The position numbers and the translations under genes are program-made. Positions 18,106-38,842 of a stretch of 40,589 nucleotides of DNA are shown here, one piece after another. Under the pieces are notes generated by a model. The model was not told the DNA's origin and did not search any database. It saw only the letters and a program-made list of their open reading frames with translations. Origin of the DNA: an uncultured Pelagibacteraceae bacterium (GTDB lineage Bacteria; Pseudomonadota; Alphaproteobacteria; Pelagibacterales; Pelagibacteraceae); the NCBI GenBank assembly GCA_902589765.1, contig CACIUF010000007.1:1-40589 (forward strand), in the 5' to 3' direction. Each line of letters opens with the position of its first letter. The first letter of the stretch is position 1.

Positions 18106-19221
18106 TTATTGTTTAGGAAAATAATCTTTAAATTCACTTTCTCTATAAACATCAGCAGTACAACAATGAAGACCGCCGCCAAAAGCATAGGCGTCTCTTA
18201 ATTCTACCGGAATTACTTCCATACCAAGTTTATCGAGCTGCTCTGCTTGATATTTTTCACTTTTTTCTACACAAACTGTCTTTGGATCTATTACCAAAAC
18301 ATTCATAGAAAGCCAAACAGATGAGTAACAAAGTGGTGGTGGTTCGTTGTGAGCAGGTTGTGCAGCATCTATAATTTCCCAACCATTATTTTCAAATAAT
18401 TTTCTTTGTTCTTTAGGTAATCTTCTTTGAGGATTGTTAATAATCAATCCTTCTTTTATTGGTGTGAAGGTTGCATCTATATGAATTGGGTATGGATCAC
18501 CAGGAAAGTTTACTGCATGAACTCGATGATCTTTATAATGTCTTTTTAACCAATCAATTCCTTTAAGATTTGTCGTAAAACCATGTTGCACCACTAAGTC
18601 TTTACCAAATCTCAAAACATCAGCTGCATCGAACAAAGGTTCTTCCTCAGTTGTTACGAAAAATTTATCTTCAGTCCATTTTAATCTCTTTTGAATTCCG
18701 ATTTTGTCAGATAAATAATCTTTTCTATAATCTGCATCTGTTAATCTTGGTTTTGGCGCTGATTCATGTCTCATGTTTGGATCTAAATCGTAATATTCTT
18801 TAAGAAGCGGACGATAACAAAGATACTCAAACCATCTGCATCTATAACTCATAGTTGCCTCTAAAATTTCATTTCCAACTGTTAATAAAACGTCCCTAGG
18901 AGGCATGCAACCAAACATAGTTTCAGATTCCCAATCAGGTGTTGAAGTTTTTTGATTAAAATTTAAAGGTGTTGGTCTATCAACTTTAATACCTCTTTTA
19001 ACCAAAATATTTGAGAAATCATCAAGTAACTGATTTGCTTTATCTACAGTGTCTTTTGTTCTAGGACCAAATTTCCCTCTCATATCTGAGTCTTCAGGAA
19101 CTTTTGCATCTAAAGCAGGCTCTGGTGCGGGTATACATGTGCCGTCGGCCCTTCCAACAATAACATGCTTTAAAGGATCCCACTCATTCCAACTATTTAC
19201 AATCCTTTTTCCTTTTTTCAT
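18106..19221 (-). CDS. Glycine amidinotransferase-like enzyme
   Basis: Amidinotransferase of the AGAT family, which moves the amidino group of arginine to an amine acceptor; with glycine this gives guanidinoacetate and ornithine. The 371-residue protein contains the catalytic triad pattern of human AGAT: D198 (FDAADVLRFG), H247 and D249 (HIDATF), and the nucleophile C353 (GGGLHCCTADVYR), with spacings close to the human D254/H303/C407. No transit peptide is present, so it acts in the cytosol. It begins one base after the creatinase stop (TAAAATG). Related enzymes use inosamine phosphate, lysine or other acceptors, so the acceptor is not proven; the creatinase neighbour favours glycine/guanidinoacetate. 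Confidence 0.88.
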   Translation of the reverse strand: MKKGKRIVNSWNEWDPLKHVIVGRADGTCIPAPEPALDAKVPEDSDMRGKFGPRTKDTVDKANQLLDDFSNILVKRGIKVDRPTPLNFNQKTSTPDWESETMFGCMPPRDVLLTVGNEILEATMSYRCRWFEYLCYRPLLKEYYDLDPNMRHESAPKPRLTDADYRKDYLSDKIGIQKRLKWTEDKFFVTTEEEPLFDAADVLRFGKDLVVQHGFTTNLKGIDWLKRHYKDHRVHAVNFPGDPYPIHIDATFTPIKEGLIINNPQRRLPKEQRKLFENNGWEIIDAAQPAHNEPPPLCYSSVWLSMNVLVIDPKTVCVEKSEKYQAEQLDKLGMEVIPVELRDAYAFGGGLHCCTADVYRESEFKDYFPKQ

Positions 19222-19222
19222 T

Positions 19223-20440
19223 TTAACCTTTTATAACATTATGCTCAGGACCAAATGGAAACTTCGTAATATTTTCTGCACTATTCTTTCCTATTACCAA
19301 AATATCATGCTCTCTATACCCTCCTGCACCTGGATTTCCTTCTGGAATAAGTATCATAGGCTCCATTGAAATAACCATATTTTCCTCAAGAACAGTGTCA
19401 ATATCCTCTCTCAATTCAAGACCCGCTTCCCTTCCATAAAAATGGGACAATACTCCAAATGAATGTCCATACCCAAAAGTTCTGTATTGCAAATATCCTA
19501 GTTCAGCAAAAAGTTCATTTAATTCATTACATATGTCAGAACATTTTACTCCAGGTTTTATTAACTCAAGCCCCCTTTTGTGAACCTTCACATTTGCCTC
19601 CCATGCTTTTAAAGATTTATCATTTACATTATCTAAAAATAAAGTCCTCTCTAAAGCAGTATAATATCCAGAAATCATTGGAAAAGTGTTTAAGGATAAA
19701 ATATCACCATTTACTAATTTACGATTTGTTTTTGGATTATGTGCGCCATCTGTATTGATACCTGATTGAAACCATACCCAAGTATCCATGTATTCAGCAT
19801 CTGGATATGTTTTGGCTATTTCTTTTTCCATTTTATCTCTTCCAGTTATTGCAATTTCTAACTCTGTTGCTCCTTCTTTAATATTTTTAACAATTTCTTC
19901 TCCCCCAATATCAGCAATTCTTGCCCCATTTTTTATAATTTCTATTTCTTCTTTAGATTTTATCATTCTTAACTTCATCAGTTTTTTTGAAATATCTGTA
20001 AAAGCAGAGGCTAAAAAAATTGATTGAATTTTTTCATTCATTTCTAAAGTAATATGATCATTTTCAATTCCAATATTTTTAGGTATTTTATTCTCATCAA
20101 TTATTGAGGTTATCGCTTTTAAAAAATTGTCTTTTTTCCAATCAGTAAAAATAATATTTTCACAATGTGATCTCCTCCAGGGCTGACTTGCATCAATATT
20201 AGCTGAAATAGTTACAATTTTGTTTTCAGTAATGATACATCCGTATGGTCTACCAAAAGAGCAGTAAATAAAACCAGAGTAGTAAGCTATATTGTGCATT
20301 GAGGTTAAAATAATCATATCAAGATTATCGTTATCCATTATAGATCTTAATTTATTTAACCTATGATTATATTCTTCGTTAGAAAAAGGTAGTTTAGCCT
20401 TTTCACCATTCTTTAAAGTAAAAAAATCAGGCCTTTCCAT
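19223..20440 (-). CDS. Creatinase (creatine amidinohydrolase), M24 peptidase fold
   Basis: Predicted to hydrolyse creatine to sarcosine and urea. The 405-residue protein follows the Pseudomonas putida creatinase pattern over its whole length, including IAYYSGFIYCSFGRPYG with R64, WFQSGINTDGAHNP with H234, YYTALERTLFLD with E264, FGYGHSFG, and SMEPMI with E360, followed by GAGGYREHDIL. These align with P. putida R64, H232, E262 and E358 with a constant two-residue shift in the later part. The match is much closer than to prolidases, which need five metal ligands. It lies between an EamA permease (13-base gap upstream) and the amidinotransferase. Substrate preference (creatine or a related guanidino acid) is inferred. 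Confidence 0.9.
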   Translation of the reverse strand: MERPDFFTLKNGEKAKLPFSNEEYNHRLNKLRSIMDNDNLDMIILTSMHNIAYYSGFIYCSFGRPYGCIITENKIVTISANIDASQPWRRSHCENIIFTDWKKDNFLKAITSIIDENKIPKNIGIENDHITLEMNEKIQSIFLASAFTDISKKLMKLRMIKSKEEIEIIKNGARIADIGGEEIVKNIKEGATELEIAITGRDKMEKEIAKTYPDAEYMDTWVWFQSGINTDGAHNPKTNRKLVNGDILSLNTFPMISGYYTALERTLFLDNVNDKSLKAWEANVKVHKRGLELIKPGVKCSDICNELNELFAELGYLQYRTFGYGHSFGVLSHFYGREAGLELREDIDTVLEENMVISMEPMILIPEGNPGAGGYREHDILVIGKNSAENITKFPFGPEHNVIKG

Positions 20441-20453
20441 AAATTTTATGAAT

Positions 20454-21359
20454 TTAATTAAGAGCTATATATCTCTTATTCCATCTCATTATAAGGCTAT
20501 AGTAAATAAGTGAAACAAAAAGAAAGAAGCCACCCACTATTGTGTTAGTAGATGGAATTTCATTAATCCCAAACAATGGTAACCATACCCAAAAAATTCC
20601 TCCAATAACCTCCGTCAGAGACAATAATGTCAATTCTGCAGCTTGAATTGCTTTGGATCCTATAGAATATAAAATAAGACCTAAACACACTAATACTCCA
20701 TGAAGAGAAAACATTGCACTATTATAACTAGTAGCAAAAAAAGTTTGTTTATTAACCAAAATCATAATCGTAGCAGTTATAAAACAAAATAAACCAGCTA
20801 CAGCAACTGTTGTAAATTTTGGAGTTTCTTTTCTCCATCTTAAAGTGACTGAAAAAATTGAAAATCCAATTGATGATGTAAGTCCAAAAACAAAACCTAT
20901 TAAAGAATTTTTTTCAGTATTACCAAAAGCCATGATTATAATACCCACAGTTGCAATAAGCATTGATATCCAGACATTTAGAGAAATTTTTTCCTTTAAA
21001 AATAAAAAAGCTAATAATGCAGTGAAAAAAGGCATTGCTGCTAAACATAATAAAGTAATTGCTGCAGTAGTGTTTGTAATTGAATAAATAAATGAAATCA
21101 TTGCAATACCAAGACCAATGCCACCAACCACTCCTGATTTACCTACTTTTTTGTAATTTTTGTAAAAATTTATTCCCTCTTCGAAATATAAATATAAATT
21201 TAAAATAATAAAAATAGTTAAACCTCTACCAAAAATATATTGCCAAGGAACCATATGAGGATCATTCATATATCTCACTACTAGAGGGCCAAACGACCAA
21301 AGTATCCCTGCAAATAAAACTACCGGTACAGCTATTTTTTCATTTCTAAGTTCAACCAT
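20454..21359 (-). CDS. EamA/DMT-family permease, first gene of the creatinase operon
   Basis: A 301-residue membrane protein with ten hydrophobic segments in two EamA repeats; the ITNTTAAITLLCLAAMPFFT and FLFLKEKISLNVWISM segments are typical. It is the promoter-proximal gene of a three-gene minus-strand set with creatinase and the amidinotransferase. Its position suggests transport of a pathway compound such as creatine, guanidinoacetate or an end product, but EamA substrates cannot be read from sequence. It diverges from the SufU-like gene across 86 bases. Confidence 0.85.
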   Translation of the reverse strand: MVELRNEKIAVPVVLFAGILWSFGPLVVRYMNDPHMVPWQYIFGRGLTIFIILNLYLYFEEGINFYKNYKKVGKSGVVGGIGLGIAMISFIYSITNTTAAITLLCLAAMPFFTALLAFLFLKEKISLNVWISMLIATVGIIIMAFGNTEKNSLIGFVFGLTSSIGFSIFSVTLRWRKETPKFTTVAVAGLFCFITATIMILVNKQTFFATSYNSAMFSLHGVLVCLGLILYSIGSKAIQAAELTLLSLTEVIGGIFWVWLPLFGINEIPSTNTIVGGFFLFVSLIYYSLIMRWNKRYIALN

Positions 21360-21445: not shown

Positions 21446-21844
21446 ATGAATTTGGATATTCTTAAAATAGCCTCTGATACCAACAATAACAAAAGTATCA
21501 AAAACTATACACACCACTCAAAATTGAAAAATTCAATGTGCGGTGATGAGATGCAAATAGATTTAGTTATCAAAAAAAATAAAATTGTTGACTTTGGTTA
21601 TCAAGGTAAGTCCTGCGTTTATTGTCAAGCCTCAGCAAGCTTACTTTCAAAAATTTCAATTAATGAAAATAAGTCTAAAATTAATGAATTGTGCGACGAT
21701 GCAAAATATTATTTTGAGGGAAATGTTGAAAATATCGAGAAAAAATGGAAATCGCTTAATAAAATATTTAATGATAAAAATTTATCTCGTAAAGAATGTA
21801 TTTTATTGCCTTTTAAAACAATAAAAAAAATAGTATCAAAATAA
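21446..21844 (+). CDS. SufU/IscU-like iron-sulfur cluster scaffold
   Basis: A 132-residue soluble protein of the NifU N-terminal fold. Ligand candidates are C32 and D34 (MCGDEM), C57 and C60 (GKSCVYCQASASLL), and C118 (RKECILLPF). The 25- and 61-residue spacings between C32, C57 and C118 match SufU of Bacillus subtilis. SufU-type proteins accept sulfur from SufS and help build Fe-S clusters, but no other suf gene is in the window. It is followed 4 bases later by an HPP membrane protein. The ATG was chosen because a -10 box ends 8 bases before it. Confidence 0.82.
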   Translation: MNLDILKIASDTNNNKSIKNYTHHSKLKNSMCGDEMQIDLVIKKNKIVDFGYQGKSCVYCQASASLLSKISINENKSKINELCDDAKYYFEGNVENIEKKWKSLNKIFNDKNLSRKECILLPFKTIKKIVSK

Positions 21845-22390: not shown

Positions 22391-23590
22391 ATGAAAATAT
22401 TATGTGTATTATATGATGATCCAAAAGGAGGAATGCCTAAGTCATATCCACTTAAAGATCTTCCTAAACTAGAAAAATATCCAGATGGGATGACCTTACC
22501 TTCACCAAAAGGAAGAGATTTTAATCCAGGGGAATTGTTAGGATGTGTTTCAGGAGAATTAGGATTAAGAAAATTTTTAGAAAGTAATGGACATGAGTTA
22601 GTAGTTACTAATAGTAAAGATGGAGATGGATGTGAGGCTGATAAGCATATCGTTGACGCTGATATAGTAATTTCACAACCTTTTTTTCCTTACTACTTAA
22701 CTAAAGAAAGAATTGCTAAAGCTAAAAACTTAAAAATGGCTATTACAGCCGGAATTGGCTCTGATCACGTTGATTTACAAGCAGCTATGGATAACAAAAT
22801 TGATGTAGTTGAAGTAACTTTTTGTAATTCAAGATCTGTTGCTGAACACATTGTAATGATGATTGTATCAATGGTGAGAGACTATCACAATCAACATAGA
22901 ATTGTTAATGAAGGTGGATGGAACATAGCAGATGCTGTGCAAAGATCTTATGATGTTGAAGGTATGCACATTGGAACTGTTGCTGCTGGCCGTATCGGTT
23001 TAGATGCATTAAGGAAAATGAAACCATTTGATGTACACTTACATTATTTTGATAGACATAAATTACCAGATAGTGTTGAAAAAGAATTAAACCTAACATT
23101 TCATGAGTCAGTAGAGTCTATGGTTAAAGTTTGTGATGTCGTGACTATAAATTGTCCCCTCCATCCTGAGACTGAGAACTTATTTGACGATGCAATGATA
23201 AGCAAAATGAAAAAAGGTGCTTATATTGTAAACACTGCAAGAGGTAAAATTTGTAATCGTGATGCAATTGCAAAAGCATTGAAGAGTGGTCAACTAAGTG
23301 GTTATGCTGGAGACGTTTGGTTTCCACAGCCAGCTCCAAATGATCATGTATGGAGAACAATGCCTAACCATGGAATGACACCTCACACTTCTGGAACGTC
23401 TTTGTCAGCCCAAACAAGATATGCTGATGGTGTAAGAGAAATCTTAGAATGTTTCTTTGAAGGAAAAGAAATTAGAGATCAATATCTTATAGTCAAAGAT
23501 GGACAATTAGCTGGAATGGGTGCTCACTCATATAGTAAAGGATCTGCCACAGGTGGTTCTGAAGAGGCAGCTAAATATAAGAAAAAATAA
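22391..23590 (+). CDS. fdh: NAD-dependent formate dehydrogenase
   Basis: Oxidises formate to CO2 with NAD, a metal-free enzyme of the D-2-hydroxyacid dehydrogenase superfamily, cytosolic. The 399 residues follow Pseudomonas sp. 101 FDH end to end, with identical numbering of key residues: N146 (CNSRS), GTVAAGRIG at 195-203, D221 (FDRH, NAD specificity), R284 (NTARGK), Q313 (FPQPAP) and H332 (MTPHTSGTS), plus the C-terminal GAHSYSKG. A strong ribosome site (AGGAG, 6 bases before ATG) stands out among weakly marked starts, suggesting high expression. Its own gap of 77 bases upstream and a strong hairpin downstream suggest a single-gene unit. Confidence 0.95.
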   Translation: MKILCVLYDDPKGGMPKSYPLKDLPKLEKYPDGMTLPSPKGRDFNPGELLGCVSGELGLRKFLESNGHELVVTNSKDGDGCEADKHIVDADIVISQPFFPYYLTKERIAKAKNLKMAITAGIGSDHVDLQAAMDNKIDVVEVTFCNSRSVAEHIVMMIVSMVRDYHNQHRIVNEGGWNIADAVQRSYDVEGMHIGTVAAGRIGLDALRKMKPFDVHLHYFDRHKLPDSVEKELNLTFHESVESMVKVCDVVTINCPLHPETENLFDDAMISKMKKGAYIVNTARGKICNRDAIAKALKSGQLSGYAGDVWFPQPAPNDHVWRTMPNHGMTPHTSGTSLSAQTRYADGVREILECFFEGKEIRDQYLIVKDGQLAGMGAHSYSKGSATGGSEEAAKYKKK

Positions 23591-25719: not shown

Positions 25720-26823
25720 TTAAAGAACATATGGCTCATGTCTCGCCTGTTTACCTAAAACTCTCTCTACAGCCATATTTGAAATATCAATTGATTGATA
25801 AGCACCCGTCGTAATCAGTTCTGTTAATGCTCTACCAATTCCCGGAGCTTGCATTAATCCTCTTCCTGTGAAACCTGTTGCTAAGTAAACATTTTCAAAT
25901 TTTGGATGTTTTCCAACAACTGCATTGTTATCAAGTCGATTGCAATCATAATATCCAGCCCATCCACCAGTTAATTTTAATTCTTCCATAGCCGGTATTC
26001 TATGAGCTAATGCTGGCCAAACTAATTCTTCAAAATCATCCCATGCAGGTTCAAGATCTTTGGCATCAAAGACTGATTTTGGTGAACCTGCTAAATATTC
26101 TTTACCTTCAGGTCTCCAATAAACTCCTGTTGTTAGATCTCCTGTTAATGGCATTTCAGGAATATGTTTCGGACACTTTACTCTGAAAACTGTATGTTTT
26201 TGAGGTTCAACAGGAATATCTTCTAAAAGCTCTTTAGTCCAACATCCAGCTGCTGAAATAATTGTCTTAGCATTAATTTCTGAAAGAGATTTAACTTCAC
26301 CCTTAACAAATTCTGCGCCAAGATCAATTGCTTTACTTTTTAGAGCACTATGAAACATGAAGGGATCAATCCATCCCTCACTTTGATTGTCAGTAAAAGT
26401 CGCTGTTTCTATTCCCTCAATATTGATATATGGAAAAAAATTATTCAACTCAGAGCCTTTGATATTTTTTGTTCCCGCATCACAAGCTTTATGATTTTCG
26501 AGCGCTTTATATTGTTCATCTGCATGCTCAGGTCCAAACATTAATAAATAACCATTGGTCACCATACTAGCGGTGGGTTTTGGATTTTTTTCAGTTTTTA
26601 ATAAATCTGGAATTTGAAAAATAAATTCTCTGGCAAATTTTCCTAATAAAATATTTTCTTTTTGGAAAAATTGTCTTCTAAAGCCACCTAATGACAAAGG
26701 AAAAGAAGCAGTTTTATAAGTTGGGTCTTTTTCTATAACTTTAACTTTTCTGCCCTCTTTTGATAAAAAATAAGCAGTCGCGGCTCCAATTATTCCACCA
26801 CCAACTATTACAACATCATCCAT
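25720..26823 (-). CDS. FAD-dependent oxidoreductase, FOXRED1-like (DAO family)
   Basis: A 367-residue flavoprotein with the dinucleotide loop VGGGIIGAATAYFLS at the N-terminus and a late GGWAGYYDCNRLDNNAVVGKH...GFTGRGLMQAPGIGRALTE region. The late region resembles human FOXRED1, a mitochondrial complex I assembly factor, more than true sarcosine oxidases. DAO-family members oxidise N-methyl or D-amino acids, so a sarcosine-type substrate remains possible given the creatinase nearby, but nothing in the sequence proves it. Its start overlaps the tspO stop (TAATG). Confidence 0.78.
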   Translation of the reverse strand: MDDVVIVGGGIIGAATAYFLSKEGRKVKVIEKDPTYKTASFPLSLGGFRRQFFQKENILLGKFAREFIFQIPDLLKTEKNPKPTASMVTNGYLLMFGPEHADEQYKALENHKACDAGTKNIKGSELNNFFPYINIEGIETATFTDNQSEGWIDPFMFHSALKSKAIDLGAEFVKGEVKSLSEINAKTIISAAGCWTKELLEDIPVEPQKHTVFRVKCPKHIPEMPLTGDLTTGVYWRPEGKEYLAGSPKSVFDAKDLEPAWDDFEELVWPALAHRIPAMEELKLTGGWAGYYDCNRLDNNAVVGKHPKFENVYLATGFTGRGLMQAPGIGRALTELITTGAYQSIDISNMAVERVLGKQARHEPYVL

Positions 26824-28634: not shown

Positions 28635-29813
28635 TTATTTATTTTGAATTGAAAATTGTATCAGATCAATATTTTTCGATTTAAATCCAGCCTCACAATA
28701 AGATAGGTAAAACTCCCACATTCTTTTAAAAGTTAAATCAAAACCTTGTTTTTTAATAAGATTCCATTTTCTATTAAATTCATTTTTCCAAATAGCTAAT
28801 GTATTTGCATAATGATCAGCATATGAATCGTAAGACTTAATTGTTAAACCATTGTCTGAAACATATTTGTTTAAGCTATTTTTACTTGGCAAAAATCCTC
28901 CTGGAAAAATATATTTTTGAATAAAATCTTGTTTCGTTTTATATCTATCAAATAAACTATCATCTATTGTAATTGCTTGAATGGCAGCCCTACCATCTGT
29001 AGAAAGGTTTTTCTTAATAGTTTTAAAATAACTTTCCAAATAATTTTGCCCTACTGCCTCAATCATTTCTATTGACGCTATTGAATTATATTTATTCTTT
29101 AAATCTCTATAATCTTTTATTTCGATATTTACTTTTTCATTTAAACCACAATTATGAATTCTTTTTTTTGCGTATTCGAATTGTTTTTTTGAAATAGTAA
29201 TACAATCTAATTTTACATCATATTTTTTTCCTAAATATTCTGCAAAACCACCCCAGCCACATCCAATTTCTAAAACCCTATCACCATGGTTTGGTTTTAT
29301 TAAATCTATCATTTTTTGATATTTGTTATTTTGTGCATCTGAAAGATCTTTAGTGTTATCGCTAAAAATTCCGCTTGAGTAAGTTAAAGTTTCATCAAGC
29401 CATAAAGAAAAAAAATCATTTCCTAAGTCATAATGTTTTGCAATATTTTCCTTACTTCTATTTTTTGTATTTTTTATAAAGATCCCTTTTAAAAAATTTA
29501 TAATTGGAAAATCGAGTAAACCTGAAAACTTGTATATGATTTTGATGTTTCGAGCTGTTATTTCAATGAGATTGGATAAATTATCAGTTTCAAATTCTCC
29601 TCTCATATAAGACTCAGCAAAACCAATGCTGCCACCCTTTATAAGATTAAAAGAAAAATTTGGTTTTTTAATTTTCAATTTAGCTTTTAAATTATCCTGA
29701 GGATTTCCAAATTTAAAAACTTCTCCTTGATAATTTGTAATTTCTAGATATCCAACATTTATTCCGGCTAATATGTTAAAAACCAGTTTATCTGAAAGTC
29801 TATTTAAGGACAT
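28635..29813 (-). CDS. Cyclopropane-fatty-acyl-phospholipid synthase-type methyltransferase
   Basis: SAM-dependent enzyme modifying unsaturated phospholipid acyl chains. The 392-residue protein has an N-terminal lipid-binding domain (about 1-110), then HYDLGNDFFSLWLDETLTYS (127-146), the SAM loop VLEIGCGWGGFAEYLGKKY (180-198), and the C-terminal FYLSYCEAGFKSKNIDLIQF. All fit the CFA synthase family. Members next to COG2907 and DUF1365 proteins form a subgroup whose product may be a methylated rather than cyclopropanated chain. The start shares one base with the DUF1365 stop. Confidence 0.9.
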   Translation of the reverse strand: MSLNRLSDKLVFNILAGINVGYLEITNYQGEVFKFGNPQDNLKAKLKIKKPNFSFNLIKGGSIGFAESYMRGEFETDNLSNLIEITARNIKIIYKFSGLLDFPIINFLKGIFIKNTKNRSKENIAKHYDLGNDFFSLWLDETLTYSSGIFSDNTKDLSDAQNNKYQKMIDLIKPNHGDRVLEIGCGWGGFAEYLGKKYDVKLDCITISKKQFEYAKKRIHNCGLNEKVNIEIKDYRDLKNKYNSIASIEMIEAVGQNYLESYFKTIKKNLSTDGRAAIQAITIDDSLFDRYKTKQDFIQKYIFPGGFLPSKNSLNKYVSDNGLTIKSYDSYADHYANTLAIWKNEFNRKWNLIKKQGFDLTFKRMWEFYLSYCEAGFKSKNIDLIQFSIQNK

Positions 29814-31808: not shown

Positions 31809-34679
31809 TTAAGCTGCATCTTCTTTAAATTCATCTATGCTTGGACAAGTACAGAATATATTCTTGTCACCATAAACATTATCAACTCTCGCAACTGGAG
31901 GCCAAAATTTATTAGCTCTTAAGAATTTTGCTGGATAAGCAGCTTCTGCTCTTGAGTATTTATGTGTCCAATCATCAGAAGCTAGTTCGCTGTCTGTGTG
32001 AGGAGCATTTTTTATTGGATTATCTATTTTATCAAATTCACCTGATTTAATTTTTTCAATTTCTTCTTTAATTTTAATTAAAGTATCACAAAATCTATCG
32101 AGTTCTGACAAGCCCTCACTCTCAGTTGGCTCTATCATCATTGTACCAGCTACTGGCCATGACATAGTTGGTGCATGAAACCCATAATCTATTAATCTTT
32201 TTGCGATATCTTCTTCGGTTACTCCTGTCTCTGATTTAATATTTCTAATATCAATAATACATTCGTGAGCAACATTTCCATTCGATCCTTTATACAAAAT
32301 TGGAAAGTGATCTTTTAGTCTATGAGCAATATAATTTGCATTTAATATTGCTACTTCAGTAGCAAGCTTTAACCCTGCTGATCCCATCATTTTAATGTAC
32401 ATCCAAGAGATTGATAGAATACTTGAACTACCCCAGGGAGCTGCCGAGACTGCTCCAATGCCAGATGTTGGTCCACAATCTTTAATCACTGGATGATTAG
32501 GTAGATAAACTTGTAAATGTCTTTTACAAGCAATTGGTCCCATACCTGGTCCTCCCCCACCGTGTGGAATACAAAATGTTTTATGTAAATTAATGTGACA
32601 GACATCTGGACCAAAATTTCCAGGCTTTGCAACTCCAACTAAGGCGTTTAAATTTGCTCCATCCATATACACTTGTCCACCATGTTTGTGAACTAACTCA
32701 CAGATATCAGTTATTTTTTCTTCAAACACTCCATGAGTAGATGGATAAGTTACCATTAGTGCCCCAAGATTTTCTGAATGTTGTTCAGCTTTTTTCTTTA
32801 AATCATCAAAATCAACATTTCCCTCTTTATCACAATTAACAACAACCACCTTCATTCCAACCATTTGTGCACTTGCTGGGTTAGTACCATGTGCTGAACT
32901 TGGAATTAAACATATATTACGATTAGCCTCACCCCTATCTAAATGATACTTTCTGATAACCATCAAGCCCGCATACTCACCTTGAGCACCTGCATTAGGT
33001 TGCAAAGAAACACCTGAAAAACCAGTTATAGAACGCAACCAATTTTTTAGATCAGTAAATAAATCTCTAAAACCCTCCATTTGTTCAATTGGAACAAACG
33101 GATGAGGTTCTGCAAATTCTTTCCATGATATTGGTATCATTTCGGCAGCAGCATTTAATTTCATTGTACAAGAACCAAGTGCAATCATAGTTCTGTTCAA
33201 TGCTATATCTTTATCTTCTAATCTTTTTAAATATCTTAGCATTTCAGTTTCTGAATGATATGAGTTGAAAACTGGATGTTCTAAATATTTTGAAGTTCTT
33301 AATAAATTTTTTGGGAGATTAGGTAAACTTACCGATGGATCTTCTTTTTTGATTGATTCTGCTGCATTAAAAATTTTTAATAGTTGATTTACTCTATATA
33401 CATTTTTTCTCTCATCAAATGATACAGCAAGCATTTCAGAATTTACTTTTCGAATATTAACTCTCTGATTCAGAGCATTCTTATAAATTTGATCAGTCTT
33501 TTCTTTGGTAATAATCGTTACGGTATCAAAAAAATTATTCGAATAAAGCTCGTATCCAGATTGTTTTATTTTGTCAGCAAAACTTTTTGCTAATTGAGAC
33601 ACTCTTTCTGAAATATTTTTAATTCCATCCGGACCATGATAAATAGCATACGCTGCTGACACAATTGCTAATAAAGCTTGGGCGGTACAAATATTACTCG
33701 TCGCCTTATCTCTTCTAATATGTTGCTCTCTAGTTTGTAATGATAATCTATATGCTTTATTACCATGTCTATCAACTGATACACCAACAATTCTTCCGGG
33801 CATTGATCTTTTAAACTCATCTTTTGTAGCAAAAAAAGCTGCATGTGGACCTCCATATCCCATTGGAATTCCAAATCTTTGGGAGCTTCCAACTGCAATG
33901 TCGGCACCAAGTTCTCTTGGCGTTTTTAATTTTGCTAGGGCTAACAGATCACAAGCTAATACAGCTTTCCCATTCTTTTTGTGAATTTTGCTAATTGCTT
34001 CACTTGGGTCTTTTATATCTCCTAAAGTTCCAGGATATTGCAAAATTCCACAAACTAAATCTTCTTTTAGCTGGTCTAAAACTTCATCTTCTTTACCGAC
34101 TAAAACCTTTAAACCCATTGGTTCAGCTCTTGTTTGAATTACATTTATTGTTTGAGGATGACAATCTTCAGAAACAAAAACTAAATTACTATCTTTTTTA
34201 TTTAATCTGTGACTTAGACCCATAGCCTCTGCTGCTGCTGTGCCTTCATCTAATAAAGAAGCATTGGCAATATCCATTCCTGTAAAGTCAACAATCATTT
34301 GTTGAAAGTTTAATAACATCTCAAGTCTTCCTTGAGCTACCTCAGGCTGATAAGGTGTATAGGAAGTATACCAACCTGGATTTTCTAGTATATTTCTCAA
34401 AATTACATAGGGTGTATAAGTTCCATAATAACCCATACCAATAAAATTTGAGTAAACTTGATTTTTTTTCGAAATTGCTCGTAACTTTCTTAACGCCTCG
34501 TATTCTGAATTTGAGTCACCAATATTAAGTTCACCTTTAAACTTTATTTTTTCAGGAACAGTATTGTCAATCAAGTCATCGAGTGATTGATAATTTAATT
34601 CTTTTAACATTTTTGATTGTTCTTCTTTAGAAGGGCCAATATGTCTTCTTAAAAAATCTTTTTCTGAATTTGGTAACAT
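31809..34679 (-). CDS. gcvP: Glycine dehydrogenase (decarboxylating), glycine cleavage P-protein
   Basis: PLP enzyme that decarboxylates glycine and transfers aminomethyl to the lipoyl arm of GcvH. The single-chain 956-residue protein (homodimeric type) starts with DFLRRHIGPS. It has the N-terminal pseudo-catalytic half with GSSQRFGIPMGYGGPHAAFFA, then the active half with the PLP lysine K700 in HINLHKTFCIPHGGGGPGMG. Length fits the family (about 950). The start shares one base with the gcvH stop, and COG2907 follows 6 bases after the stop. Confidence 0.98.
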   Translation of the reverse strand: MLPNSEKDFLRRHIGPSKEEQSKMLKELNYQSLDDLIDNTVPEKIKFKGELNIGDSNSEYEALRKLRAISKKNQVYSNFIGMGYYGTYTPYVILRNILENPGWYTSYTPYQPEVAQGRLEMLLNFQQMIVDFTGMDIANASLLDEGTAAAEAMGLSHRLNKKDSNLVFVSEDCHPQTINVIQTRAEPMGLKVLVGKEDEVLDQLKEDLVCGILQYPGTLGDIKDPSEAISKIHKKNGKAVLACDLLALAKLKTPRELGADIAVGSSQRFGIPMGYGGPHAAFFATKDEFKRSMPGRIVGVSVDRHGNKAYRLSLQTREQHIRRDKATSNICTAQALLAIVSAAYAIYHGPDGIKNISERVSQLAKSFADKIKQSGYELYSNNFFDTVTIITKEKTDQIYKNALNQRVNIRKVNSEMLAVSFDERKNVYRVNQLLKIFNAAESIKKEDPSVSLPNLPKNLLRTSKYLEHPVFNSYHSETEMLRYLKRLEDKDIALNRTMIALGSCTMKLNAAAEMIPISWKEFAEPHPFVPIEQMEGFRDLFTDLKNWLRSITGFSGVSLQPNAGAQGEYAGLMVIRKYHLDRGEANRNICLIPSSAHGTNPASAQMVGMKVVVVNCDKEGNVDFDDLKKKAEQHSENLGALMVTYPSTHGVFEEKITDICELVHKHGGQVYMDGANLNALVGVAKPGNFGPDVCHINLHKTFCIPHGGGGPGMGPIACKRHLQVYLPNHPVIKDCGPTSGIGAVSAAPWGSSSILSISWMYIKMMGSAGLKLATEVAILNANYIAHRLKDHFPILYKGSNGNVAHECIIDIRNIKSETGVTEEDIAKRLIDYGFHAPTMSWPVAGTMMIEPTESEGLSELDRFCDTLIKIKEEIEKIKSGEFDKIDNPIKNAPHTDSELASDDWTHKYSRAEAAYPAKFLRANKFWPPVARVDNVYGDKNIFCTCPSIDEFKEDAA

Positions 34680-35059
34680 TATGCTGAAGTCTCCTTTGCA
34701 AATTTATCGTAATCGTCTTTATTCATTAAAGTATCCATTTCCGATGGATCTTTTATTTTAAGTTTAAAAAACCACGCTGAGTCTTCTGGGTCTTGATTAA
34801 TCTTTGATGGATCATCTACTATAACTTGATTAGTATCAACTACTTCACCACTAACAGGGGTATATACATCACTAGCAGCTTTAGTTGACTCCACAACGCC
34901 AGCTGTACCATCTTTCTCTACGCTAGAACCTTTTTCTGGAAGCTCTGCAAAAACTATATCACCTAACATCTCTGTAGCATGTTTTGTGATACCAATTGTT
35001 GCAACATCTCCATCTAATTTAATCCACTCATGCTCTTTTGAATATTTTACTTCACTCAT
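34679..35059 (-). CDS. gcvH: Glycine cleavage system H protein
   Basis: Lipoylated carrier of the aminomethyl group. The 126-residue acidic protein has [20 protein letters not shown] at the N-terminus and the lipoylation site K60 within [20 protein letters not shown]. Both ends are joined to neighbours by TAATG (one shared base), so gcvT, gcvH and gcvP are translationally coupled. Confidence 0.97.
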
Positions 35060-36162
35060 TAGTTTACCCCTTTGACATAACTTTTTTTATAAAATGGTAA
35101 GCTGCAAATACTTGCAGGATGTTTTTTACCTCTGACTTCTAAAAATACTTTAGTATTTTTTTTTGAAAATTCATTTTCCACATAACCCATTGCAACAGGT
35201 CCATTAACACTTGGTCCAAATGTACCACTTGTAATTTCTCCAATATGAACATCTGATTGATTAAATATTTTTGTTTTTTCTCTAGCAATAATTCTTCCCT
35301 CAGGTTTGATACCAACTCTTATTTTACTGACACCATCATTTAATTGTTTAATGATTATGTCAGAGCCAATAAAATCTCCTTTAGAGATTCTTTCTTTTGA
35401 AATAGCCCACTTTAAATTTGCTTCCACTGGTGTTTTGTCTTTATCAAGATCATGACCATAAAGACATAAACCAGCCTCCAATCTTAGTGTATCTCTTGCT
35501 CCAAGACCTATCAATTTAGATCCTTTATTGATTAATTCTCTAGTTAATTGGTCTACAAAATCATTTGTGATTGATATCTCAAAACCATCTTCACCCGTAT
35601 AACCAGATCGCGTAATATAAACTTTCTGATTTTCAAATTTAAACCAGTTTCCAGACATAAAGTTAAGATCTTTTACACCATTAATAACATCATTAAGAAT
35701 TTCTGATGATTTAGGACCCTGAATGGCAATTAGAGATCTATTTTCATCCAGAACCATTTTGTACTTCTCTTCAAGAAGTTCTTTTAAAATTTTAAAGTCA
35801 TTATCTTTACATGCTGCATTAAGGATTATCAAAAAGCCCTCATTTGTTTTTGTGATAATTAAATCATCATGTATCCCAGCATCTTTATCCATTAAGAAGC
35901 TGTATTTCGAATGATTTAATTTCAAATTTTTAAGATCTAAAGGAAAAATTTTTTCTAAATCTTTACTTAAGTCTTCACCACCATAAATAAATAGCTGACC
36001 CATATGGGAAACATCAAAGATACCTGAGTGATTTCGTGTGAATTTGTGTTCCTCTACAATACCTTCCGAATATTGTATCGGCATTTGATAGCCTGCAAAT
36101 TCAACAAATTTTGCATTACAATCTTGATGTAATTGGTACAGCGATGTTTTTTTTGTTTCCAT
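35059..36162 (-). CDS. gcvT: Aminomethyltransferase, glycine cleavage T-protein
   Basis: Transfers the one-carbon unit from aminomethyl-GcvH to tetrahydrofolate, releasing ammonia. The 367-residue protein has [28 protein letters not shown], the folate-site region [14 protein letters not shown], and [20 protein letters not shown], all T-protein signatures. It is first in gcvT-gcvH-gcvP, preceded by a tandem glycine riboswitch. The sequence AAAGAG five bases before the ATG is the only ribosome-site candidate, and both it and the ATG can pair with the riboswitch linker. Confidence 0.97.
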
Positions 36163-36321
36163 ATTAACTCTTTGTACCCATCTGTATATTTGCCTGAGAG
36201 TTTTGCTCCTTCGGCGAGAATTAAATCTCTTTCCAGAGTTAATATGTTACGGTCCTTTTTGCCTGAGAGATTCCTGGGTGGTTGCTCCTTCGGCGCTACG
36301 ATAGTCTGTAGTCTCTCCCGT
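36160..36321 (-). ncRNA. Tandem glycine riboswitch with expression platform at gcvT start
   Basis: Two glycine aptamers on the minus strand. Aptamer 1 (about 36321-36249) has GGGAGAG, GCGCCGAAGGAGCAA, CTCTCAGGCAAA and a closing ACGG/CCGT stem. Aptamer 2 (about 36237-36181) has GGAAAGAG, CTCGCCGAAGGAGCAAA, CTCTCAGGCAAA and a TCTG/CAGA stem. The linker is 11 bases. The mRNA segment CAUAUUAACUCU (36246-36235) is perfectly complementary to AGAGUUAAUAUG (36171-36160), which holds the gcvT ribosome site and start codon, so control is probably at translation start. Glycine riboswitches before gcv genes are known in SAR11. Confidence 0.95.
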
Positions 36322-36332
36322 GGCAGGATATT

Positions 36333-36356: not shown

Positions 36357-37231
36357 TCAGAAACAATTTTTTTTTGCTTACTTAAAAGCGAGTAAAATTG
36401 TAATAAAACCGCAGAAAGTATAATTGCGCCACCAATTAATCCAAATACAGAGGGTCTTTCACTTACGAAAAGGAATGCCCATATCGGTCCTAGGACAGAT
36501 TCGGATAACATTATGATTCCAACCATTGCAGACGGTGTTGTTCTTGCACCGATAGTTATAAATATAAAACCAAAACCAACTTGAAAAAAACCTGCGAGAA
36601 AACCTAAAAAGATATCATGAGGAGAAATCATGATTTTAGTGGAAAGCAAAAAACCAATTAGACATGAACTCACACCAGCAACGAACTGGGCTGGCACCAT
36701 ATCCACAGAGGGAAATTTTCTCACAATCATTATTAAAACTGCAAAAGTAATTGGCATTGTAAATGCTGCAAGGTTTCCAGATAATTCTCCAGGAGATAAT
36801 GAATTGCCAACCATTAATAAAACACCTGTCATCGCCAGACAGATTGAAAACAAAGTAATTAAATTTATTTTTTCCTTAAGGAAAAAATACCCAAATATTG
36901 CAAGAAATAGTATTTGAAGTGAAATGATAAAATTAGTATTAGCAACAGTGGTGTTGTACATAGCAAACACATATCCACAAAAACCAAAAGATAAAATAAT
37001 TCCACCAAAAAATCCTGGTAATCCAGATTTATAAAATGACTCAATTGTTTTTCCTCTATAACTTAAAATTAAGAAAGCTAGAACTGTTAAAGAAAAAAAT
37101 AAAGATCTCCAAAATAGAATTTGCCATAACGTAGCTCCCTCAAAAGATTTTACAATTAATCCACCAAAACTTAAACTTAATGCACCTAAAAAAATTAATA
37201 ATGGTCCAGGTAAGTTTCTTATAAAAGTCAT
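36353..37231 (-). CDS. EamA/DMT-family permease linked to pxpBC
   Basis: A 292-residue inner-membrane protein with ten hydrophobic segments and the two-repeat EamA layout (GALSLSFGGLIVKSFEGA, FWRSLFF, TTVANTNFIISLQILFLAIF). The start overlaps the pxpC stop by 4 bases, so it is coupled to the 5-oxoprolinase genes. Transport of 5-oxoproline or a related compound is possible but not shown by sequence. It ends just upstream of the gcv promoter region. Confidence 0.85.
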   Translation of the reverse strand: MTFIRNLPGPLLIFLGALSLSFGGLIVKSFEGATLWQILFWRSLFFSLTVLAFLILSYRGKTIESFYKSGLPGFFGGIILSFGFCGYVFAMYNTTVANTNFIISLQILFLAIFGYFFLKEKINLITLFSICLAMTGVLLMVGNSLSPGELSGNLAAFTMPITFAVLIMIVRKFPSVDMVPAQFVAGVSSCLIGFLLSTKIMISPHDIFLGFLAGFFQVGFGFIFITIGARTTPSAMVGIIMLSESVLGPIWAFLFVSERPSVFGLIGGAIILSAVLLQFYSLLSKQKKIVSD

Positions 37232-38175
37232 AAAATTTGTGAAATTAAATTTTGCGTCTCTAAGTCATATAATTTAAATAATGTTTCTGCATCAGCTAAT
37301 TCAACTTTTTTAAATTTAATCTTTGAACCTGGGGTTAATTGAACCAACTTGTCATAATCTGCACTGATAACAACTCCTATTTTAGGATAACCTCCAATAG
37401 TGCCATGATCTGAAAGCATAATTATTGGATTTCCATCTGCTGGTACTTGAATAACACCTTTTAATAAACCTTCTGATTTAATATTGGTATCAACAATATT
37501 TTCTATTTTTGGTCCCTCTAGCCTCATACCCATACGATCTGATAATTTTGATATTACAAATTCTTTCTCAAAAAAAATCTTTTTTCCTTCGTCAGAAAAA
37601 TAGTCAAAATTTGTTCCTTGGATAACTCTGATATTTTCAATTTTTGTATTAATGTAATTTAATTTTTTATCACTTAAATTTTTATTGATATTTAAAATAT
37701 AAATCTTTTGTCCATCTTCTATTTTTTTTCCATTATTTGCACCAATATTTGCTTTTGTGTTAACAGAGCAACTTGACCATTGATAATTAACATCAAATTC
37801 ACCACTTACTGCTAAATATCCATAAACAGATTTATTAGTGCTTATAATATCTAACTCATCACCATTTTCTAAAGCGAAAGATTGATAACATTTTCCTTCG
37901 ATAGTATTTTTTTTTTTTCTAATTATAAATTTTACATCCCCCGTGATTGCAAAATTAATATTTTCACCAAAATACTTTAACAAAGGACCTTGATAAGCAA
38001 ATTCAATTATTGGAAAATTTACTTCATTACCAACAAGTTTATTAGAAATTTGAAAATTTCTATTATCCATTGCTCCACTAAATGGAATACCAATATGATA
38101 AAGATTTCCTCTACCCTGATCTTGAAATGTTGTGTTAATTCCAGCTCTTTTTATTTCAAAATAATTTTTATTCAT
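37228..38175 (-). CDS. pxpC: 5-oxoprolinase subunit PxpC (KipA-like)
   Basis: One of three proteins of bacterial ATP-dependent 5-oxoprolinase, which opens 5-oxoproline to glutamate. I start at ATG 38175 (315 residues), giving NYFEIKRAGINTTFQDQGRG, the normal family opening; an in-frame TTG 36 bases upstream lies inside pxpB. Family blocks are GIPFSGAMDNRNFQISNKLVGN and the late MLSDHGTIGGYPKIGVVI. It overlaps pxpB by 8 bases and the EamA gene by 4. Older annotation calls it biotin-dependent carboxylase-like or urea amidolyase-related. Confidence 0.92.
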   Translation of the reverse strand: MNKNYFEIKRAGINTTFQDQGRGNLYHIGIPFSGAMDNRNFQISNKLVGNEVNFPIIEFAYQGPLLKYFGENINFAITGDVKFIIRKKKNTIEGKCYQSFALENGDELDIISTNKSVYGYLAVSGEFDVNYQWSSCSVNTKANIGANNGKKIEDGQKIYILNINKNLSDKKLNYINTKIENIRVIQGTNFDYFSDEGKKIFFEKEFVISKLSDRMGMRLEGPKIENIVDTNIKSEGLLKGVIQVPADGNPIIMLSDHGTIGGYPKIGVVISADYDKLVQLTPGSKIKFKKVELADAETLFKLYDLETQNLISQIL

Positions 38176-38842
38176 TGTTATTGTAATATTGTTCTTTAGT
38201 AATTTGCTCAAAAGTAACTACATCACCTGGATTAATTAAATTTGGATTATTCTCATTAGTGCTATCAAAAATAACTTGTGGTGTATTTCCAATGATATTC
38301 CACCCACCAGGACTTTCAAATGTATAAACATTTGCAAATTGTTCTGTTAATCCAACTGAGCCCTTAGGCACTTTTACTCTCGGTGTTTCCAAACGTTTTG
38401 CCTGCAACTCATTTTCCAGATCACCAAGAAAAGGCATACCTGCAATAAAACCAGTCATATAACAAAAAAATTCCTTACCAAAAAATTTCTCATAGATTTT
38501 ATCACGAGTTATTTTTAATTTTTCCTCTAATCTTTTTATATCTAATGAAAAATTTTCATCACAACAAACAGGTATCTTTATTCTATTTGTCTCTAATTCA
38601 TCATCATTAGTAATATTTAAATTTTCGATTAATTTTTTGATCATTTGAAAATTTTTTTTTCGAAGATCGAATGAAATAATTAATTTATTATATGAGGGAG
38701 TTAAGTTATTGATCCCATCAATATTTTCTTTTTGAATACTTTTAAAATATCGTATTACTTTACTATTTATTTCTTTGTTTACCTCAGACCCGAAATCACA
38801 ATACAAAGCTGCGTCACCAAGATTTGATATATTTTTAATCAT
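38168..38842 (-). CDS. pxpB: 5-oxoprolinase subunit PxpB (KipI-like)
   Basis: A 224-residue partner of PxpC. Signature segments are NLGDAALYCDFG near the N-terminus, FLGDLENELQAKRLETPRVK after GFIAGMP, and GSVGLTEQFANVYTFESPGG with the following GWNIIGNTP. It is first in the minus-strand run pxpB-pxpC-eamA and diverges from pxpA over about 21 bases. A minus-strand TATAAC lies 5 bases before its ATG. Confidence 0.92.
   Translation of the reverse strand: MIKNISNLGDAALYCDFGSEVNKEINSKVIRYFKSIQKENIDGINNLTPSYNKLIISFDLRKKNFQMIKKLIENLNITNDDELETNRIKIPVCCDENFSLDIKRLEEKLKITRDKIYEKFFGKEFFCYMTGFIAGMPFLGDLENELQAKRLETPRVKVPKGSVGLTEQFANVYTFESPGGWNIIGNTPQVIFDSTNENNPNLINPGDVVTFEQITKEQYYNNNE

Follow-up and report, generated by a model that had tools for sequence, protein, structure and literature searches.

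The window analysed here is a 40,589-nt stretch of DNA from an uncultured bacterium of the Pelagibacteraceae (SAR11), one whole contig (CACIUF010000007.1) of a 954-kb genome that is 78% complete (assembly GCA_902589765.1). The subject of this report is a set of three genes on its minus strand, which encode, in order of transcription, an EamA-family permease of the DMT superfamily (20454..21359, 301 aa), a protein that is very likely a creatinase, or creatine amidinohydrolase (19223..20440, 405 aa), and an amidinotransferase of the arginine:glycine amidinotransferase (AGAT) family (18106..19221, 371 aa). The intergenic gaps are 13 nt and then 1 nt, and the coordinates confirm the tight codirectional operon described in an earlier note on this DNA. 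Both the genes and their arrangement as an operon hold up, and the families to which they belong are ordinary ones. What is new is that AGAT is near-core in SAR11 and that positional evidence ties it to amidino-removing enzymes; the SAR11 creatinase has already been published.

The divergent neighbour of the permease gene is a gene with a NifU-N domain, which begins at 21446. The permease passes the Pfam cut-off for PF00892 (62 bits against 28.2), and no NCBIfam model exceeded its cut-off for any of the three operon proteins. No riboswitch was found in the operon: with hits admitted up to E = 1, Rfam matched the window once, at a glycine riboswitch (36240-36330). Between 17700 and 21600, a promoter scan returned 14 promoter-like sites against 20.7 expected from shuffles, i.e. 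no excess, and a terminator scan returned 3 terminator-like sites against 1.4 expected. Internal transcription signals may exist in the operon: on the minus strand, a weak terminator-like hairpin (20555-20530) falls within the coding sequence for EamA, and a promoter-like site (19401-19374) falls within the end of the creatinase gene.

The middle gene product matched the Pseudomonas putida creatinase 1chm over nearly its full length (phmmer, E = 6e-160, 536 bits), and the next two creatinases, 7yto and 1kp0, scored 521 and 500 bits, whereas the best M24 protein that is not a creatinase reached only 98 bits. A generic M24 prolidase and an ectoine hydrolase were considered for this gene and ruled out by these scores. 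The residues that we take to be the catalytic and substrate-binding ones of 1CHM (F62, R64, H232, E262, H324, R335 and E358) are all identical in the alignment. The third gene product matched human AGAT along residues 8-367 of its 371 (E = 4e-84, 43% identity) and, in a 12-sequence alignment, was 44% identical to a CyrA-like protein encoded on a Dolichospermum plasmid. The catalytic D110, D198, H247 and C353 are kept in that alignment, so that both enzymes retain their catalytic residues, as the earlier note had it.

The donor site of the AGAT protein is likewise intact. D249, R266, S300 and S301 correspond to human D305, R322, S354 and S355, which we take to form the arginine/ornithine site on the strength of the residue roles assigned to the human enzyme. 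In this it is unlike SxtG, which has F and V at the R322 and S354 positions; an alphaproteobacterial relative (L164) also has F at the R322 position. Judged from these residues, arginine or ornithine as one partner of the enzyme appears well supported, and glycine or guanidinoacetate is the likely other partner. The 300-flap is a point against the latter: it reads DPYPI, with Y244 and I246 where human AGAT has N300 and M302, and since both specificity positions differ, the small partner may not be glycine or guanidinoacetate. However, the change does not exclude glycine, because CyrA, an Arg:Gly enzyme, differs there as well (F245, S247); in the sections available of PMC3684758, AoaA is given as an Arg:Gly enzyme with F245/S247 in the flap.

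The flap substitutions also speak for a different substrate, be it guanidinopropionate, guanidinobutyrate, taurocyamine or a hydroxylated guanidino acid, which would be used by both enzymes or by AGAT alone. Guanidinopropionase/guanidinobutyrase-like ureohydrolases in the window's own genome and in its relatives point the same way, and the EutA-like and DoeA-like partners found in other genera (below) hint at other solutes. The creatinase, though, is full length, with each of the creatine-site residues listed above identical. In addition, a guanidinobutyrase relative from humans acts on the longer guanidino acids and not on guanidinoacetate or creatine (PMC9772407, in the portion consulted), so that the short ones could be the niche of AGAT and creatinase. 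We consider a different substrate unlikely.

The distribution of the two enzymes was followed in a draw of 197 genomes of the family, with creatinase counted at E <= 1e-60 and AGAT at E <= 1e-20. Creatinase was present in 40 of these genomes and AGAT in 63. Within the window's genus AGAT was found in 50 of 51 genomes and creatinase in 24, every one of which also had AGAT, leaving 27 without creatinase; the total of 51 follows from the AGAT listing, where one genus genome without AGAT precedes the genomes of other kinship. The AGAT of G152, counted among the 50, is no more than a 74% relative and has a different setting. By coordinates, the creatinase adjoins AGAT in 23 of the 24 genomes. In the 24th (G188), the creatinase is cut by contig edges, and a corresponding named contig (L194) has creatinase sequence directly before AGAT. 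The creatinase match in G182 runs through a TAA, yet a 403-aa open reading frame (ORF) is present there. These counts (AGAT in 50 of 51, creatinase in 24 of 51) do not support reading the three genes of the earlier note as one obligatory set. That note named a lack of co-occurrence in related genomes as one way in which its idea could fail, and this is partly what the counts show. In a draw of 289 genomes of the class, AGAT (E <= 1e-30) was found in 8 and creatinase (E <= 1e-60) in 33.

The best 80 of 567 confirmed AGAT loci were all labelled Pelagibacteraceae, Candidatus Pelagibacter or Pelagibacterales, which places the window in SAR11. Among these 80 named loci, which were picked by closeness to the window AGAT and are biased accordingly, the gene directly before AGAT was creatinase at 50 of 81 AGAT places and EamA at 27, with a contig end or nothing found at the other 4. 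Related loci have EamA immediately upstream of AGAT or creatinase. All 15 mapped genus loci that carry creatinase have it between EamA and AGAT, transcribed in that order, with no other slot used, and at the 21 mapped loci without creatinase EamA lies 0-45 nt ahead of AGAT. The unit of the genus is a near-core EamA-AGAT pair with an optional creatinase, present or absent in this middle slot, and not a fixed three-gene set. On a FastTree phylogeny of AGAT from 107 distinct loci, 62 of them with creatinase (loci without near-full EamA and AGAT were dropped), the creatinase state changes at least 8 times. With the labels shuffled (100 shuffles) the number was 26-40, and with the EamA tree in place of the AGAT tree it was 12. 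At one locus (L216), EamA and the NifU-like protein are 99% and 97% identical to those of the window, with AGAT at only 93% and creatinase absent, a pattern that suggests recombination swapped a creatinase-AGAT block.

These data bear on two accounts that we regard as highly improbable. The first is that the genes have no functional link and are neighbours held together by genome streamlining, which would suit the compact gene order of SAR11 and the fact that some genomes of the family have only one of the two enzymes, be it creatinase or AGAT. Against this stand the gain and loss of creatinase in exactly one slot, with 8 or more events on the AGAT tree, and the repetition of the co-location in two different gene settings. 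The second is a two-enzyme arginase, in which AGAT would turn arginine and sarcosine into creatine and ornithine, and creatinase would free urea and regenerate sarcosine. The 1-nt gap in the window and the AGAT alongside every genus creatinase would fit such a cycle, but 26 of the 51 genus genomes have AGAT and no creatinase, two arginase-superfamily genes are already present in the window's own genome, and the literature consulted gave no support for sarcosine as an AGAT acceptor.

Creatinase is not the only amidino-removing enzyme whose position AGAT takes. SAR11 has a second locus of interest, where EamA adjoins a paralogue of AGAT (75%) in two cases, L080 and L081. A ureohydrolase closest to 3-guanidinopropionase (3nip, E = 6e-45) lies between a GMC-type gene and EamA in 7 of 10 loci and beside EamA only in 1 of 10. 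As AGAT swaps positions with two amidino-removing hydrolases, creatinase and ureohydrolase, a catabolic role is favoured. The second locus is possibly a pathway for some guanidino compound. It is represented by L080, L081, L273, L275 and L277-L282 and comprises EamA genes, a GMC-type gene and a 2OG-Fe(II) oxygenase whose best PDB match is an ethylene/succinate-forming enzyme (E = 1.5e-21); several of these loci also carry LLM monooxygenase, AA_synth and aldehyde dehydrogenase genes.

The survey of other genera of the family took in 13 loci, as far as their contigs reach. Here a cassette of EutA-like, DoeA-like M24, ABC ATPase, polyamine-type binding protein and permease genes is headed by creatinase alone in 6 loci, by AGAT alone in 5 and by both in 2, one of the latter (G010) with 8% contamination. 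The EutA-like protein (TIGR02990, 198 bits against 318) and the DoeA-like M24 protein (465 bits against 613) are both below their NCBIfam cut-offs. In other families, 2 of 13 fetched creatinase loci (L168, L169) have creatinase by the same transporter and an EutA-like gene, with ORF calling crude in this GC-rich DNA, and the genes after a 61% AGAT are EutA-like, PALP and ornithine-cyclodeaminase-family ones. Overall, ectoine-utilisation-type EutA-like or DoeA-like genes adjoin creatinase or AGAT in L094, L097, L101-L112 and L161.

We infer from this material the substrates, the direction of AGAT, the role of EamA and glycine supply as the benefit. The operon would be a guanidino-acid scavenging unit. 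Creatinase would convert creatine to sarcosine and urea, as family knowledge and residue conservation lead one to expect, and the demethylation of sarcosine to glycine would fall to enzymes from other parts of the genome. AGAT would run in the amidino-unloading direction, from guanidinoacetate and ornithine to glycine and arginine, with no urea lost, and EamA would move a substrate or a product. The passages available from PMC3684758 and PMC4887976 describe the characterised AGAT-family enzymes as reversible, with guanidinoacetate donating its amidino group in human AGAT and CyrA. Glycine-directed salvage with AGAT working toward arginine and glycine, as proposed in the earlier note, remains the likeliest logic, given the positional trading with creatinase and ureohydrolase and the PF01212 gene that is often next. 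For the full explanation, creatinase plus reverse AGAT plus glycine supply, we see the case as evenly balanced. Slightly more tentative is the broader proposition that Pelagibacter has a near-core catabolic AGAT, run in reverse for guanidino-acid salvage and interchangeable in position with creatinase and guanidinopropionase-like ureohydrolases, which would pass amidino nitrogen to arginine rather than urea and glycine to an auxotroph.

A competitor of about the same weight as a different substrate is AGAT in its textbook direction, from arginine and glycine to ornithine and guanidinoacetate, with the guanidinoacetate serving as a solute or leaving through EamA, and with creatinase as a separate, creatine-degrading neighbour. 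Many loci do have AGAT and EamA without creatinase, and human AGAT and CyrA/AoaA, the closest relatives that have been characterised (43-44% identity), work in this direction, so far as the cited texts extend. However, it would use up glycine in a glycine auxotroph, as Ca. Pelagibacter ubique is described in the part consulted of PMC12478193. The exchange of position between AGAT and hydrolases that remove amidino groups, seen at two loci, and the place of AGAT at the head of an ABC importer cassette in other genera also count against the textbook direction, which we consider unlikely.

Several further observations weigh against the scavenging explanation. EamA proteins are often exporters. 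AGAT occurs without creatinase in 26 of the 51 genus genomes, and among the 16 creatinase genomes in the rest of the family, 11 had no AGAT match and 1 only a 34% relative, the remaining 4 having a closer AGAT or an AGAT fragment; it follows that neither enzyme needs the other. At the second locus, two other ORFs separate the AGAT paralogue from the GMC-type gene in L080, the paralogue has Y at the S354 position, and one of its three loci (L082) is without the EamA and GMC-type neighbours. The same neighbours are missing at 2 of the 10 ureohydrolase loci (L274, L276), and the ureohydrolase and EamA genes are on opposite strands. In another family, a 72% AGAT (L160) has enoyl-CoA hydratase, 3-hydroxyisobutyrate dehydrogenase-like and phosphoglycerate dehydrogenase genes as neighbours and no permease or hydrolase alongside. 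Finally, one of the two SAR11 soxBDAG sets may act on N-methylglutamate, according to the accessible text of PMC3160333.

Genes elsewhere in the window and its genome may deal with the sarcosine, glycine and urea of the scavenging explanation. A sarcosine-oxidase-type soxA gene is over cut-off once in the window's own genome, with a second, partial one (816 bits) at a contig end. A FAD oxidoreductase of the DAO family in the window (25720-26823, minus strand) has sarcosine oxidase 1y56_B as its best PDB match (E = 2.5e-24); a DAO-family oxidoreductase is also in the neighbourhood where creatinase is missing. The NAD-dependent formate dehydrogenase nearby (22391..23590, plus strand; NF005750, 665 bits, cut-off 329) may be where the route for the methyl carbon of sarcosine ends. 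The glycine cleavage genes gcvP, gcvH and gcvT (31809..36162, minus strand; TIGR00461, TIGR00527 and TIGR00528 over cut-off) are a likely sink for surplus glycine, and the glycine riboswitch aptamer lies upstream of gcvT (36240..36330, minus strand; RF00504, 63.8 bits, gathering 32). A PF01212 gene (beta-eliminating-lyase family; lyase/aldolase) is next after AGAT at 34 of 81 and 14 of 47 places; its best NCBIfam match is below cut-off, and it may be a threonine-aldolase-type source of glycine. Creatine biosynthesis would pair AGAT with a guanidinoacetate methyltransferase; among the window genes given Pfam or NCBIfam calls, the methyltransferase at 28635-29813 is cyclopropane-synthase-like.

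As to urea, the first of the two arginase-superfamily genes in the window's own genome has decarboxylase-like and deoxyhypusine-synthase-like neighbours, and the second, closest to guanidinopropionase/guanidinobutyrase, has an aldehyde-dehydrogenase-like one (labels by eye); with two such genes, urea would not be a foreign product. Ornithine carbamoyltransferase matched at 272 bits or more in 53 of 61 genus genomes, 33 of them over the 280.85 cut-off, and at 275.5 bits in the window's own genome. Urease was over cut-off in 7 of the 197 family genomes, all 7 creatinase-positive; it is rare, though, with none over cut-off in the window's own 78% complete genome and in 17 of the 24 genus creatinase genomes. 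The association with creatinase within the genus has a naive p of 0.003, which loses weight when the kinship of the genomes is taken into account. As a general outlet for urea, urease was rejected: 144 of the 197 genomes match at E <= 0.001 and only the 7 are over cut-off, the other matches being weak (at most 35 bits among those listed) and set aside as other amidohydrolases. A carboxyltransferase-domain pair (CT_A_B, CT_C_D) lies at 37228-38842 on the minus strand of the window, of a kind that we take to be known from 5-oxoprolinase or urea-amidolyase-related proteins.

Relatives on mobile elements and divergent copies were also recorded. On plasmid records, the best creatinase was about 60% and the best AGAT 56% identical among the matches listed, with no SAR11 names there; the AGAT records at 56% and 54% are stretches without annotation. 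Viral contigs yielded no relative of the window creatinase and one AGAT-bearing contig (L283, 70%), whose ORFs, inspected by eye, suggest bacterial DNA next to a Mu-like prophage. A divergent SAR11 amidinotransferase (L117, 7858-9042, plus strand; relatives in L116, L118 and L119) is 31-34% identical to the window AGAT and has inosamine-phosphate amidinotransferase 1bwd as its closest PDB match (E = 5e-75). In G137, a second, partial AGAT (C15, 491-931; L193) is 98% identical over residues 225-371, with one internal stop, and lies a few kb away from an intact operon.

SAR11 is among the most abundant marine bacterial groups and is known to depend on a supply of glycine. If AGAT does run in reverse, guanidinoacetate and creatine from plankton would be sources of glycine, arginine and nitrogen for these cells, which would constitute a marine sink for guanidino compounds and a catabolic role for an enzyme that has been studied for its part in biosynthesis. 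For a near-core gene, the list of substrates is short and testable. Among PMC papers under CC0, CC BY or CC BY-SA terms, we found no publication on a SAR11 AGAT or a creatinase-amidinotransferase operon. Sarcosine and glycine betaine in SAR11 are treated in PMC3160333, where "creatine" is absent from the main text in the version consulted.

The closest precedent is the predicted use of creatine in SAR11, for which a creatinase cluster was listed and conversion of creatine to glycine proposed (PMC3686209), and in AEGEAN169 (PMC11366302); in the portions consulted, these share with the present case a creatinase, an oligotrophic marine alphaproteobacterial host and the route from creatine through sarcosine to glycine. 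They differ in that the same portions do not mention an amidinotransferase, that the SAR11 creatinase cluster is given as core to subgroup 1a, against 24 of 51 genus genomes here, and that Ca. Indicimonas of AEGEAN169 also uses urea. Ectoine and hydroxyectoine utilisation (EutA, DoeA/EutD) is related through the cassette partners in other genera, but these are below the cut-offs and the window operon has neither. With the bacterial creatinases 1CHM (P. putida), 1KP0 and 7YTO, the middle gene shares full-length homology and the active-site residues listed above, whereas in SAR11 it is an optional gene that sits between a permease and an amidinotransferase. With human AGAT and the cyanobacterial CyrA/AoaA, the window enzyme shares 43-44% identity and the conserved catalytic and donor-site residues, and it differs in its flap, DPYPI against DPNPM or DIFPS. 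Those enzymes are biosynthetic, whereas the operon and the positional trading of the SAR11 AGAT suggest a catabolic use.

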